Part shown: in pieces, positions 22,619 to 37,079 of the stretch
Position numbering within the stretch: position 1 is the stretch's first letter
Layout of the letters: the number at the start of each line of letters is the position of its first letter
The notes under the pieces: generated by a model
Database searches by the model: none
Told to the model about the DNA's origin: nothing
What the model saw: only the letters and a program-made list of their open reading frames with translations
Translations under genes and position numbers: made by a program
Assembly (NCBI RefSeq): GCF_900114435.1
Contig: NZ_FOZK01000002.1
Location: 310,001 to 374,000 of the forward strand
DNA length: 64,000 bases
From: Halomicrobium zhouii
GTDB lineage: Archaea > Halobacteriota > Halobacteria > Halobacteriales > Haloarculaceae
Reading direction: 5' to 3'

Positions 22619-25192
22619 GTGACCCAGCTTTCTCAAGATCATCGATTGGAGGAGTTCGAAACCTCCTCGGGAACAATCCTCGAAGCATTAGATATTACTG
22701 ACGAATCTTGGTTTCAAGTTATCAAAAATCGGTCCTTCAGAGTCCCGGAATACCAAAGAAATTACTCTTGGGGGGATACTCAACGAGACGAATTCTGGTC
22801 AACGTTAAAACGAAATTTTGTCGATCTTGGACCGCTTCCTTCTGATCTTGATGAGATGGATCTTTCAGGCCTGTACATGGGGGCAGTATACATCGCTGTT
22901 CCAGGACCGGAAGACGAGCAAGAAAAACTCGATATCGTCGATGGACAACAGCGTTTTGCTTCCTTCCAACTATTGATTAAGGCCCTCAATGACAACATCC
23001 TTAGTCTAAAAGAAGAGGCTCGAGATCAAGGAAAACATGATCTCGTTTCGGAGCTTACGGAGGTAGAGGTAAAACTCGAAAAGGGATACTCTGGGACCGA
23101 ACCCTCAGTAAAACTGAATTCAGAAGACCGGGAATTTTTCGCAGCATTAGCAGCATATCCAGAAAACTGGTACATTGATGTCCGTGATTTTCTAGTTGAC
23201 CAGATTGATAAACACCCAGACATAACAGGCAGAAACCGACCTAGGGCTAAGACTATTGAGGAACTCGCTGAGGCTATTCAAGAACCGATCCAATTCAACG
23301 GAGATGACAATCTCACAGACGATTCGGCATTTGAAGCCGATAAGGATGGAGACGAAGATGCGAAACTCGGGAAACACGTCCGGTTCCTCAATTCGCACGA
23401 ACGAATGTTGGAGGCATACAGTGAAGCCTACGAGTTGATAGAGACTCTCCAAGATGAAGAGACAAATGGAGAGCTGGCTCAACGAGCTTATATTACGATG
23501 AACTTTTCCTCTTTCGTTCTTCATGCGATTGCGGTCGATCGGTGTTTAATTACGGAGCCGAACCCCGACCTGCGGCTTGACATTTTCCAATCGATAAACG
23601 ACAAGGGGCTCGCATTACACGATGTAGACAAAATTAGAGCTCGAATCAAACACCGTCTAGTTGGCTCAGGATCAAGTGGGGTAATGGAGGAATGGCGGGA
23701 AACACTTGCTCGGTTTGATGGTGACAAAGATGATATTAAAGAGATGCTGAAGTACTTTGTCGCTGCAAAAGAAGACAGCGTGAATAAGATTTCGGAAGCA
23801 AACAATGCAGTCATGCAAGTCTTTGACCGGTCCACACCAGAGAGGTCGAATGTCACACCATTGCTGACGCAGGATAATGCTGAAAACCTCGTGACCGAAG
23901 TCTCAACGTATTCCAAGTACTATGATGATCTCTATCAGTGTGAGTTCAACCACTTTGACCGATCGATTGATGATAACAATCGGAAAGAAGTAAAACGGAT
24001 ACTCAACCGTGTAGGCAAAAAAATTGAAGCAGAACAGTGGCAGGCACTTGGTCCGTTTGTGTATATGATGGTAGACCAAGGTGCACCGGAGGACTATGAC
24101 GAAGAAGATATTGGGAATTTCTTATTTGAGGTGTTTGATGCCATTGAGGTTCTTACCCTCCGGCAATCGATTAGCGACCACAGTGGGGAAGCTATCGAGG
24201 GAGTCTATGTCAACGCTGTCCAAAACTTCAATAATCGGTCTTCGGATCAATTCGACGCCACCAAGATTGTCTTAGACATTGTCGAGGATGCGAGCAATCA
24301 GACAGAGGACCTCTTCGAAGATGGAATGATTTATCATGCCGTAAAGAACCGTAATTGGACTTCTAGTGACCTAGGGCGGTGTATCCTTCAACGTACGACA
24401 AGTAGATATCTTAAGGAAGAAGATATGGGACTCGAGGTTCGAGACTACTCAGATGTCGATGTTGAGCACATTCTTCCACAAACACCTATCTCCGATGAGG
24501 CAGGGAGAAGTGCCTCAAGTTCGGAACCCGGGAAATATGCCTGGTTAGACTACTTCTTCCGGGTTAACGAGACTGATGAAGACTCACAGATCGCACAGGC
24601 TATAAAAGTACTAAAGGATCAAAGTATCTCGTCTCTACAGGCAAGCGATGTAGATTCGGACGATCTTGGAGATGAGGTTAACGAAGATGAGATACTAAAC
24701 ATCCAAGAGGAGGTATTCAAGCGATTCGTCGATGATATCGCAAATCTTCTAATTCTAGTTAATCAGGACAACCAAGAGTTAGGGAACAAACTTCTCTCCA
24801 AAAAATTACCTGTGTACTGGAGGGATACCTATATCAAAGTAATTATCAATGATTTCTTTAGCAATGAAGAGAATTCGCCGTTTATCGAATCGGAATATGT
24901 CAATCTTGATACGGGTGATGTCGACGAGATCAGGGGGGAGGATCACCTTTCCGACGATATTGCAGAGCAAGTGGATCGTTCGTGGACTTACGAAGTAATG
25001 TTTGAGCGTAAGGTGGACATGGTTCACCAGATATTGAAACGACTTACGTTCAATCTTGAGCCAGATAGCTCGGGTGGAGACAGAGATGAATCCGTTGGGG
25101 TCGACAAAAGCGAGTTCGATGGGCTCAGAGACCAAATTAAAGCTGCCGTAGACGATGATCGTGAACGGCGAATATCCCGTCGGAACTTCTAA
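22619..25192 (+). CDS. GmrSD-type type IV restriction endonuclease (DUF262-DUF1524)
   Basis: This 857-residue single-chain protein begins at GTG 22619. Residues 42-51 (VPEYQRNYSW) and 106-112 (IVDGQQR) are the signature of the DUF262 ParB/Srx-like nucleotide-binding domain. Residues 615-621 (VEHILPQ) are the His-containing core of the DUF1524 HNH nuclease domain. Together these define GmrS and GmrD fused, as in BrxU and SspE. Such enzymes cut modified (glucosylated or phosphorothioated) DNA using NTP. The gene uses many AT-rich codons and is visibly lower in GC than the genes on either side, which suggests recent transfer. It stands alone between a degraded region and the right-hand integrase. 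Confidence 0.92.
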   Translation: MTQLSQDHRLEEFETSSGTILEALDITDESWFQVIKNRSFRVPEYQRNYSWGDTQRDEFWSTLKRNFVDLGPLPSDLDEMDLSGLYMGAVYIAVPGPEDEQEKLDIVDGQQRFASFQLLIKALNDNILSLKEEARDQGKHDLVSELTEVEVKLEKGYSGTEPSVKLNSEDREFFAALAAYPENWYIDVRDFLVDQIDKHPDITGRNRPRAKTIEELAEAIQEPIQFNGDDNLTDDSAFEADKDGDEDAKLGKHVRFLNSHERMLEAYSEAYELIETLQDEETNGELAQRAYITMNFSSFVLHAIAVDRCLITEPNPDLRLDIFQSINDKGLALHDVDKIRARIKHRLVGSGSSGVMEEWRETLARFDGDKDDIKEMLKYFVAAKEDSVNKISEANNAVMQVFDRSTPERSNVTPLLTQDNAENLVTEVSTYSKYYDDLYQCEFNHFDRSIDDNNRKEVKRILNRVGKKIEAEQWQALGPFVYMMVDQGAPEDYDEEDIGNFLFEVFDAIEVLTLRQSISDHSGEAIEGVYVNAVQNFNNRSSDQFDATKIVLDIVEDASNQTEDLFEDGMIYHAVKNRNWTSSDLGRCILQRTTSRYLKEEDMGLEVRDYSDVDVEHILPQTPISDEAGRSASSSEPGKYAWLDYFFRVNETDEDSQIAQAIKVLKDQSISSLQASDVDSDDLGDEVNEDEILNIQEEVFKRFVDDIANLLILVNQDNQELGNKLLSKKLPVYWRDTYIKVIINDFFSNEENSPFIESEYVNLDTGDVDEIRGEDHLSDDIAEQVDRSWTYEVMFERKVDMVHQILKRLTFNLEPDSSGGDRDESVGVDKSEFDGLRDQIKAAVDDDRERRISRRNF

Positions 25193-34242: not shown

Positions 34243-34404
34243 ATGGGACACGTCTACTACCACCACCCGGGCGACAGGCGACACTCGCTCGACTTCGTCC
34301 ACGACGACCCAGCTGTAGCGCTCACCAAAGTCGTCGGATACGACGATGACGTGACCGTGAAGGTCCGCTCCTACGATCACGACAGTGAGTTCTACGTGGT
34401 CTAC
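34243..34404 (+). pseudogene. 5' part of Fic/Doc-like gene split by an IS element
   Basis: The first 54 codons (MGHVYYHHPGDRRHSL to EFYVVY) continue in frame with the codons at 36378 if the 1973 bp between are removed. An 11-bp sequence acgtggtctac occurs at the end of this part (34394-34404) and again at 36367-36377. The joined frame would encode 287 residues. Confidence 0.6.
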
Positions 34405-34446
34405 AGGCGGAACAGGCCGAGTGCCTCGGGGCTTGACCCCGAGGGT

Positions 34447-34860
34447 GAAGGCCGTAAGCTCTGTAAACGTGTTCCGTTCGCTCGATGTACTGTTCACTCG
34501 TATCGGTCGAAACGTCACCAGCCGTCCCGACGTAGTACGATTCTTCCCAGAACCCACCGCCCCACAGGTATTCCTGTAACAGAGGTTCGTGCTGTTGCCA
34601 CATCTCTCGTGCTGTAATGCTCTGACTGTCCGTACAATCTCACTGAGGGCGTGTTTGGGATGTGCCGACGAGAACAGGTGTACGTGGTCGGGTGAGATGT
34701 GTAACGACAGTATCTCGTAGTCGTACTTGTCACACACCGCTCGAAAACTCGATTCCAGTGAATCTTCGATCACACCCAGTATCGGGTCTCGATACTTCGG
34801 ACACTACACGAAGTGGTAGTTGACGTTGTATACTGTGTGGTTTGACCATTTCTCGCCCAT
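34447..34860 (-). pseudogene. tnpA: Broken IS200/IS605 TnpA (Y1 HUH transposase)
   Basis: Reading leftward from ATG 34860, the frame shows VYNVNYHFV, a TAG at 34804-34806 in place of the usual Trp, then CPKYR and the HUH box in SPDHVHLF. A frameshift near 34618-34628 moves the rest to another frame (REMWQQHEPLLQEYLW, then YYVGTAGD with the catalytic Tyr, then QYIERTEH). Two independent lesions make this a true pseudogene. Confidence 0.85.
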
Positions 34861-34916
34861 ACAGACAGTACGTGGACAAGAATTAAGCATTTCAGTGAAT
34901 AAGCAATACGTGTGAG

Positions 34917-35054
34917 ATGACTAAACGACTCACTGTGGACTTCGAGGACGAGCTATACAAGGAGTTCTCGAAGCAATGTATCGACGCTGAGAAAACCAAG
35001 TCCGAAGTCGTGCGTGGACTCGTCCAAGACTGGCTCACCGAATCCGAAGAATGA
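34917..35054 (+). CDS. 45-residue ribbon-helix-helix protein coupled to tnpB
   Basis: ATG 34917 opens a 45-codon frame whose TGA overlaps the tnpB start as ATGA at 35051. The product reads MTKRLTVDFEDELYKEFSKQ, then a second helix with KSEVVRGLVQDWL, which is a minimal RHH (Arc/CopG) fold. It uses the same codon bias as tnpB and lies just inside the divergent tnpA start. By position and fold it is likely a repressor of tnpB and tnpA, or an element-specific DNA-binding partner. Confidence 0.75.
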   Translation: MTKRLTVDFEDELYKEFSKQCIDAEKTKSEVVRGLVQDWLTESEE

Positions 35055-36328
35055 CCGACGTACAGACTCTCGTGAAGACGCTGGATTTCCAACTCAACAT
35101 CCAGAGTGACAACGAAAGTCTGCTGGAAGACGCCACGCTCGAATCACGGTGGGCCTACAACGAAACCATCCGTCTCGCCAAGCAGGGCGTGGACTGGGAC
35201 GAAATCCCCGGCCGTGTGGCCGATGACGCCGACCTCGTGAAAAACACTACACAACGTGTCGTAGCGAAGGCACTCGGCGCGATGGAAAACTACCACGAGT
35301 ACGACGACTTCGGCCAGCCGAGCCACACCAAAGACGGCGCGTATCCGCTTCGAGCCAACTACGAAGAAGGCTACAACCTCACGCTTCGAGACGACGGAAC
35401 CATGGAGTTCCGTATCAGTGCCAAACCGTACAAGCACGTCAAAGGCGTACTGGAGGGTGACGACACCCATCTCGACATTCTGCGGGCGGCACTCGCTGGT
35501 GACGAGTGGGCTATCGGGACAGCCGAAGCCCTGTTCCACGACGGAACGCCCGAGTTGCACGTCAATGTCACGAACACCGAGCGTACCGTCCGAGAGAAAC
35601 AGGACTCTCGGACAGTCATCGGCGTGGACGTGAACGAAGACAACGTGGCACTGTCGGCACTGTCAGCAGAGGGCGTCGAGGATACGCTGGTCATTGATTT
35701 CCCCGAAATCAAGTTTGAGCGTCACCGCTACTTCACGATGCGAAAGCGGGTGCAGAACGCCGAGAAACCGAGTATGCACGATACGCTTGAAGGACGGGAA
35801 GAACGGTTCGTCCGTGACCGACTCCACAAGGTGAGCCGTCACATCGTGGAGTGGACCAAGCAGTTTGAGACACCGTGCGTCGTCTTTGAAGACCTCAAAG
35901 AGATGCGCGACAGTATCGACTACGGTACTCGGATGAACCGACGTTTGCACCACCTGCCGTTCCGTGCGCTCCAATACTACACATCGTACAAGGCCGCCTT
36001 CAAGGGTGTCCCAACAGCGTGGATTGACCCCGAGTACACGAGTCAACAGTGTCCGAGCTGTGGACACACGGAGCGAGCGAACCGCAACAGAAAGCGGTTC
36101 AAGTGTCGGTCGTGCCAGCATCAGGACCACGCCGACCGAAGTGCGAGTGTCAACATCGCTGTGAAAAGTATCGAGAAGCATCAAGACTGGAATGTGCCTA
36201 CTCTCAACAACCTTCCCCAAGTTCGGAAGGTGCGACGGCAGGCATCGGGGGCCGTGGACGCCCCGACCGTGGCCTTGGATACCGCGAGAGGGCATCATCC
36301 CGATGGTATCCGAGGCGTGTCCGACTAA
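35051..36328 (+). CDS. tnpB: TnpB, RNA-guided nuclease of IS200/IS605 element
   Basis: This 425-residue protein is complete. RuvC residues appear in order: Asp in IGVDVNEDNVAL, Glu in CVVFEDLKEMR and Asp in DHADRSASVNIA. The treble-clef zinc ribbon CPSCGH ... CRSCQH lies between the last two. The N-terminal REC-like region begins LVKTLDFQL and the linker includes LHHLPFRALQYY. TnpB proteins use a right-end-derived omega RNA to cleave empty donor sites and so retain the element. The C-terminal 50 residues after the last Asp are Pro/Ala-rich and overlap the presumed omega RNA region. Confidence 0.95.
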   Translation: MTDVQTLVKTLDFQLNIQSDNESLLEDATLESRWAYNETIRLAKQGVDWDEIPGRVADDADLVKNTTQRVVAKALGAMENYHEYDDFGQPSHTKDGAYPLRANYEEGYNLTLRDDGTMEFRISAKPYKHVKGVLEGDDTHLDILRAALAGDEWAIGTAEALFHDGTPELHVNVTNTERTVREKQDSRTVIGVDVNEDNVALSALSAEGVEDTLVIDFPEIKFERHRYFTMRKRVQNAEKPSMHDTLEGREERFVRDRLHKVSRHIVEWTKQFETPCVVFEDLKEMRDSIDYGTRMNRRLHHLPFRALQYYTSYKAAFKGVPTAWIDPEYTSQQCPSCGHTERANRNRKRFKCRSCQHQDHADRSASVNIAVKSIEKHQDWNVPTLNNLPQVRKVRRQASGAVDAPTVALDTARGHHPDGIRGVSD

Positions 36329-36377
36329 TCCACGGGAAGCCTCGGGGCTTGACCCCGAGGCGGTTCACGTGGTCTAC

Positions 36378-37079
36378 ACCGCACAGGGGACGAGGGGGAC
36401 CGTCGACAGTATCGACTTCGACCTAGGCGAAGCGCTCGCCGACATGGACGACGACAACAGAACGATCGTCGTTCGATTGCTCGAGATTTACGAGGCACTC
36501 GTCTCCCAAAACGAGGCGGAAGAAGGGGAGCCAGTGACAGCATACAAGAGCATCGACATCGAGGCACTCCCGAACGTCCTCGACCGGACAGCCTGGGAGG
36601 GATCAGCGACTCAGATCGCGGGACGTCTCGCGTCGAATCTCATCCTCACCCACCCACTCCCGAACGCGAACCATCGGACCGCAGTGGCACTCGTCCAGTT
36701 CTACCTCCGCCGGTTCGACGCGAGCTTCATGCTGCCAGAAACGGTCACCGGGACCGAGGAGTGGCACGCGTGGGTCGACGAGTACATTACCGACTCCAAG
36801 CGCCTGTTGACGGTCCGTCGAAACAACGTCCTCTTCAAACATCTGCGTCGGTTCGGAACGACGACGGTCGAACGAAAACACGGCGTCGAGATCGACCTGC
36901 CCGACTACGAACTCGACATGTATCCCAGCGAAGCCAAACAGATCTATGCCACGGAACACGAACACCTCTGGATAACGTTCGTGGAAGATGCCGTCGAGCG
37001 GGCCGAGAAACCGGAACTCCGTGACGCTCCTGGCCTGTCGAAAGCAGCATTCGCAGACGCTATTCGAGACCTGCGCTAA
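36378..37079 (+). pseudogene. 3' part of Fic/Doc-like gene split by the IS element
   Basis: This frame encodes 233 residues beginning TAQGTRGTVDS. The motif HPLPNANHRTA corresponds to the Fic/Doc active-site loop HxFx(D/E/N)xNxRTA, with Leu for Phe and Ala for the first Gly; the catalytic His and the Arg are present. Helices before and after fit the Fic core. Fic domains AMPylate and Doc phosphorylates target proteins, and Doc is the toxin of phd-doc. It is split from its first 54 codons by the IS, although it could still be translated as a fusion from inside the element. Confidence 0.7.

Follow-up and report, generated by a model that had tools for sequence, protein, structure and literature searches.

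The locus raises a simple question: why should a small gene of the ribbon-helix-helix (RHH) kind stand directly ahead of tnpB in an IS200/IS605-type element, in the position that we call the slot, with its stop codon inside the tnpB start? The answer that we favor is that the gene probably supplies the regulator of an exchangeable cassette, an autorepressor that would act on both tnpA and the coupled tnpB. The element lies in a 64,000-nucleotide stretch of Halomicrobium zhouii DNA (the window), and its features are shown in Table 1.

Table 1. Features of the element, in window coordinates.
Feature	Position	Strand	Basis or remark
IS200/IS605-type element, whole	34405..36368	.	Ends aligned with nine other copies
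Element ends			Left begins after TCTAC; right ends ..GCGGTTCAC
Left subterminal palindrome CCTCGGGGCTTGACCCCGAGG	34424..34444	.	Sequence; identical palindrome at right end
tnpA (Y1 transposase) pseudogene, three frame fragments	34462..34860	-	Pfam Y1_Tnp 1e-7 and 4.8e-10; three HMM fragments; start codon 34858-34860, far end set by analogy with intact relatives
Exchangeable cassette, tnpA start codon to tnpB start codon (shared promoter region and regulator gene)	34861..35050	.	
Candidate operator, three tandem 8-bp repeats AAGCATTT-CAGTGAAT-AAGCAATA, overlapping TATA-like TTAAG	34885..34908	+	
RHH (ParG/CopG-like) regulator gene, 45 aa	34917..35054	+	Pfam, dN/dS, structure model
ATGA stop/start overlap of RHH gene and tnpB	35051..35054	+	RHH gene ends ...GAA GAA TGA
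tnpB, RNA-guided nuclease family, 425 aa, intact frame	35051..36328	+	NF040570 guided_TnpB 7.5e-38, above cut-off
Omega RNA-like region, overlapping tnpB 3' end and right end	36192..36378	+	Rfam sot2652
Right subterminal palindrome	36340..36360	.	Sequence

By inspection the element has subterminal palindromes and no terminal inverted repeats, a trait of the IS200/IS605 family. Not every one of the nine copies used to place the ends is readable at both; among those that are readable, copies of different slot class have similar-looking ends. The sequence GTGGTCTAC flanks the element directly on both sides (34396-34404 and 36369-36377), the left flanks of the other copies have just (T)CTAC or GTAC in common, and target duplication is not expected of IS605-type elements. 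The insertion splits a host gene (34243-34404 and from 36369) whose relatives at L292-L295 are uninterrupted, with open frames of about 291-294 residues; the portion to the right of the element matches Fic/DOC weakly (E 0.076). A Y1 (HUH) TnpA gene, divergent from the RHH-tnpB pair and broken in this copy, was missed by the sequence-only reading of this DNA. The tnpB product also matches Cas12f1-like_TNB and can be aligned to chains of Cas12f over its C-terminal region, with one Glu and one Asp position that we take to be catalytic. At 45.1 bits (E 6e-8), the sot2652 match does not reach the gathering score, which is 61.

The sequence-only reading had described a 45-codon RHH frame ending in the ATGA that begins tnpB, and we confirm this frame from the sequence. 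Its product matches Pfam ParG above the cut-off (E 9.3e-6, 26.2 bits, cut-off 21.4) and falls just under that for RHH_1 (E 7e-4, 19.8 bits, cut-off 20.5). The AlphaFold model (mean pLDDT 79) has helices at 11-23 and 28-44, with no strand called in the monomer. The top Foldseek match is CopG 1ea4 (TM 0.67/0.71), yet at a Foldseek E of only 0.43, and in VIA comparison of the model ParD, NikR, and CopG rank highest, with Z of 5.1-5.7. The protein is thus predicted to have an RHH-type fold, albeit with modest scores. Relatives include plasmid ParG, at 45% identity, and none were found in the phages and viral contigs searched. Public plasmid records either label the RHH gene hypothetical or have no gene annotated there.

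The small frame is real and recurs beyond chance. Relatives of the protein (E 0.01 or better) are found in 33 of 392 genomes of the order, 169 of which carry a close tnpB (1e-60). An alignment search of named genomes gave 24 loci, with the gene directly before tnpB in 22; the exceptions are L256, with no tnpB in the fetched stretch, and L260, a Nanoarchaeota bin match at 45% that looks unrelated. L256, from Halobellus salinus, encodes an RHH relative 80% identical over 34 residues and is probably a remnant, as neither tnpB nor tnpA lies within the 5 kb retrieved. Median pairwise dN/dS is 0.209 for the RHH genes versus 0.222 for the adjoining tnpBs, and slot genes overall lie between 0.11 and 0.21. 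RHH identity can exceed that of TnpB, as in G259 (L017), with an RHH protein 86% identical and a TnpB only 58% identical.

The slot was surveyed before related tnpBs. We fetched 166 loci, set aside 16 duplicates, and examined 150, of which 141 match the tnpB N-terminus; the other nine are own-genome tnpBs (L003-L008), RHH loci without tnpB (L030, L035), and a degraded locus (L037). These 141 were drawn from the tnpB matches listed, with intact tnpBs over-represented, and hold a DUF2080 gene in 48, an RHH gene in 27, a VapB-like gene in 18, DUF2080 plus an extra gene in 5, and nothing in 43. Profiles of the three main families match their own class alone over the whole locus, the DUF2080 profile finding 47 of the 48 and all five with the extra gene. 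The match of the VapB-like protein to VAPB_antitox (7e-4) is below the cut-off, and the model of the DUF2080 slot protein was poor (pLDDT 59.5) and left unused. The extra gene (L095, L116, L117, L118, and L125) encodes a protein of about 190 residues with no Pfam match; it lies between DUF2080 and tnpB and stops near the tnpB start codon or runs into it.

A 4-nt overlap with tnpB is present at 81 of 93 slot loci (RHH 19/27, VapB-like 18/18, DUF2080 44/48). The remaining RHH junctions comprise two 1-nt overlaps, five 9-nt gaps, all in variants 52-55% identical, and one broken gene. The sequence-only reading had suggested looking at haloarchaeal tnpB loci for the small frame with its ATGA, and this pairing does recur, although most loci hold other families or nothing. 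It had also held that absence of the frame from closely related elements would count against it. Taken literally such absence is seen, since the nearest slot-less tnpBs (L039, L040, and L042, 91-92% identical) have neither slot gene nor tnpA; in substance it is not, since in most other relatives this position is taken by another family of regulator.

A slot gene is present wherever a divergent tnpA is (82 of 82 loci), and all 43 slot-less loci are without tnpA. Because the slot gene and tnpA are neighbors, they may be lost together in a single deletion, and this co-absence is weaker than it looks; among pairs independent by descent, 5.4 agree and none disagree (median p 0.0625). At 16 of 98 slot loci the slot gene stands without tnpA, and its function therefore cannot lie in controlling tnpA alone. 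At the slot-less loci tnpB is intact in 40 of 43, and at two loci the slot gene is broken and tnpB intact.

A tnpB tree with 130 rows requires a minimum of 34 changes of slot type, versus 69 when shuffled, and strongly supported branches alone force seven changes for DUF2080, five for RHH, and three for VapB-like genes. For a set of 60 loci placed on both trees, tnpB requires 14 changes and tnpA 11, with about 26 when shuffled. Related elements of different slot class show identity breakpoints at the two start codons, those of tnpA and tnpB. Thus in the pairs L050/L064, L066/L089, and L100/L164 most of tnpA and tnpB shows about 80-94% DNA identity, while the block between is 29-56% identical; for L050 (VapB-like) and L064 (DUF2080) the values are 85-94% for tnpA, 80-98% for tnpB, and 38-42% between. 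From these alignments, promoter and regulator seem to be swapped as one block, start codon to start codon. In L038 and L159, tnpA and the RHH gene are 88-97% alike and tnpB differs (45-82%), showing that the slot-tnpB junction recombines too. Escape from cross-repression was considered as the driver of exchange and gave no signal, with 6 of 13 co-resident pairs of the same slot class versus 5.1 expected.

The promoter region carries sites that change along with the regulator. RHH loci share the pattern AAGYATTT-CAGTRNNT-AAGYA, and in 18 distinct sequences from 19 RHH loci (8 divergent ones of the 27 left out) the upstream self-match is 0.56 at lags of 8 and 16 versus 0.285, a value as high appearing in none of 2000 column shuffles; this test supersedes a narrower pattern (TAAGYA, gap, TAAGYA) that matched 12 of 27. 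A PWM scan places the best site of the window at the candidate operator, the sole good one in the element. Two further hits, at 23736 (16.8) and 24606 (13.0, compared with 29.9 for the operator site), lie inside a long ORF and are attributed to chance; this ORF (22619-25192) carries a DGQQRF motif and presumably encodes a DUF262-type defence nuclease. By eye, the repeats stay in place in all five RHH loci without tnpA. DUF2080 loci instead have the dyad GTATATNN-N3-NNATATAC, right after a TATA-like TTAAG, in 44 of 48 cases and in all five with the extra gene. Within 900 bp upstream it is absent from all 88 other loci (0/27 RHH, 0/18 VapB-like, 0/43 slot-less). For the VapB-like class, a search for operator-like repeats found inverted ones no better than in shuffles and direct ones at 1 of 18 loci. 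The octads and the dyad are putative operators, the dyad co-segregating with DUF2080 and the octads preceding the RHH genes.

These observations are best explained by an autorepressor cassette. The RHH protein would most likely dimerize and bind the tandem 8-bp repeats over the tnpA-tnpB promoter region, and when bound may repress both its own operon and the divergent tnpA. Once a copy has settled, little transposase or nuclease would then be made. Through the ATGA overlap, translation of TnpB would depend on that of the regulator by termination-reinitiation, such that the nuclease would never be produced on its own. Other pairs of regulator and putative operator, such as DUF2080 with its dyad, or else a VapB-like RHH gene, have taken the place of the entire block on several occasions in related elements. 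We prefer autorepression with coupling because it accounts together for the position of the gene, the overlap, the promoter repeats, and the joint exchange of regulator and site. The idea that a dedicated DNA-binding partner could repress TnpB, put forward in the sequence-only reading, fits best with the conserved coupling, operator-like repeats, and purifying selection. Overlap coupling was strict in 13 of 14 pairs tested in Haloferax volcanii and Escherichia coli (PMC6728339), coupling by gene overlap is documented for H. volcanii (PMC6728339, PMC10666635), and Halobacterium TnpB proteins are low or undetected, with post-transcriptional control proposed (PMC10134880, PMC12558985). A transcriptional switch within the element would add a layer to such control.

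Small regulators are also found before more distant tnpBs. Among 76 further haloarchaeal loci, a non-random set of own-genome genes, best-match loci, and 40 from better-scoring matches (75 distinct, as L192 repeats L005), 24 have an upstream small regulator, mostly 0 to 22 nt before tnpB, and most have none. A small regulator before tnpB therefore extends more widely than this element. Eleven are CcdA-like RHH genes (0.0042 to CcdA, below the cut-off), seven DUF2080 (one degraded), and six MazE-like (6e-9 to MazE_antitoxin). The CcdA-like genes (L168-L171, L173, L177, L184, L197, L198, L203, and L205) end 0-3 nt before tnpB, and several have short tandem repeats upstream, by eye; the MazE/AbrB-like genes (L182, L210-L214) end 5-22 nt before it. 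No tnpA was reported alongside the resolved slot loci of this sample, to which L177 and L184 do not belong. By TnpB profile, DUF2080 is followed by TnpB in 13 of 13 haloarchaeal matches examined and in none of 17 from outside the order of the window's organism (L261, L264, L265, L272-L274, L276, L279, L280, L282-L285, and L287-L290).

We tentatively raise a broader speculation, that haloarchaeal TnpBs form interchangeable antitoxin-type modules drawn from at least five families (ParG-like RHH, VapB-like, CcdA-like RHH, DUF2080, and MazE-like). Promoter, operator, and regulator might swap as in phage immunity, with co-resident elements escaping or imposing repression and some partners restraining TnpB by contact.

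Contact could also be the main function. In this case the slot protein would be an antitoxin-like partner that binds nascent TnpB at the ATGA and restrains the nuclease, autoregulation through DNA being secondary. The resemblance of slot families to VapB, MazE, and CcdA antitoxins suggests as much, as do the slot genes kept without tnpA in both samples, and DUF2080 is reported as one of the validated antitoxins of nuclease toxins (PMC10440598), which keeps this rival alive. We nonetheless consider it unlikely. TnpB persists intact without any slot gene, in three cases with a protein very close to this one, and beside the two broken slot genes; L044 and L052, near neighbors on the tnpB tree, have unrelated slot proteins, hard to reconcile with a specific binding surface. 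Its strict form, addiction to a partner without which TnpB is toxic, is rejected in view of the intact slot-less tnpBs.

It is a good deal less probable that the slot gene merely hitchhikes, as cargo of the antitoxin or addiction kind that is kept because it brings a promoter and loads ribosomes, and that it controls neither tnpA nor TnpB. Any small expressed gene supplying a promoter would presumably also give mixed families in the slot, but every occupant resembles a DNA-binding regulator family, the promoter site changes along with the regulator, and purifying selection on slot genes is as strong as on tnpB. Least probable of all, by a little, is a transposition accessory that marks the ends, as the sequence-only reading had suggested, or bridges them with TnpA: plasmid relaxosomes employ RHH proteins as accessory factors, TnpA belongs with relaxases among the HUH enzymes, and slot type fits the tnpA tree slightly better, but end-marking is disfavored because the octad site is single, in the promoter, and at neither end, the DUF2080 dyad occurs once per locus in 49 of 53 and not at all in 4, the ends look alike across slot classes in the readable copies, and slot genes outlast the loss of tnpA.

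TnpB is a relative and likely ancestor of Cas12, and the slot bears on how it is kept quiet while its element is not moving. If the autorepressor reading is correct, an insertion sequence of less than 2 kb would bring along a switch for its own transcription whose specificity can be exchanged, an arrangement more familiar in phages and toxin-antitoxin loci, and DUF2080 would gain a role in these elements. Whether an IS605 element is controlled at transcription can be tested directly at the slot, and its regulators offer a way of finding tnpB operons.

With the haloarchaeal IS200/IS605 elements (IS605-type and IS1341-type) this one shares a Y1 tnpA, tnpB, subterminal palindromes, and an omega RNA-like right end; in the text available of PMC3119063 and PMC12558985, tnpA and tnpB are named alone, with no mention of a tnpB-coupled regulator gene. 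Neither an RHH gene coupled to tnpB nor cassette exchange is described in the literature searched, to which preprints and most subscription papers do not belong, including the available parts of these two and of PMC8303175, PMC10440598, PMC10134880, PMC12737573, PMC6563490, and PMC3403918. What is already known is the pairing of DUF2080 with transposase, in the NCBIfam name (NF033496). That family occupies the same slot with the same ATGA overlap in the same tnpB lineage, but is unrelated in sequence to the RHH protein, and the name records the transposase association only. ParG/CopG-type autorepressors share with our gene the RHH domain and short tandem repeats at their own promoter, comparable to the 8-bp boxes of MetJ. 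The protein differs from ParG in that no ParF-type ATPase gene adjoins it in this element and its N-terminal part is absent, the match starting at profile position 34 of 76. Type II toxin-antitoxin operons likewise begin with a small DNA-binding gene that overlaps the one for a nuclease, and their antitoxin families are exchangeable, although TnpB, the effector here, persists without a partner. Phage immunity regions exchange repressor and operator. Here the block is of 0.2 kb in an insertion sequence, and co-resident copies show no same-class avoidance; as in those regions, a putative repressor and its candidate sites appear to swap as a block between conserved genes.
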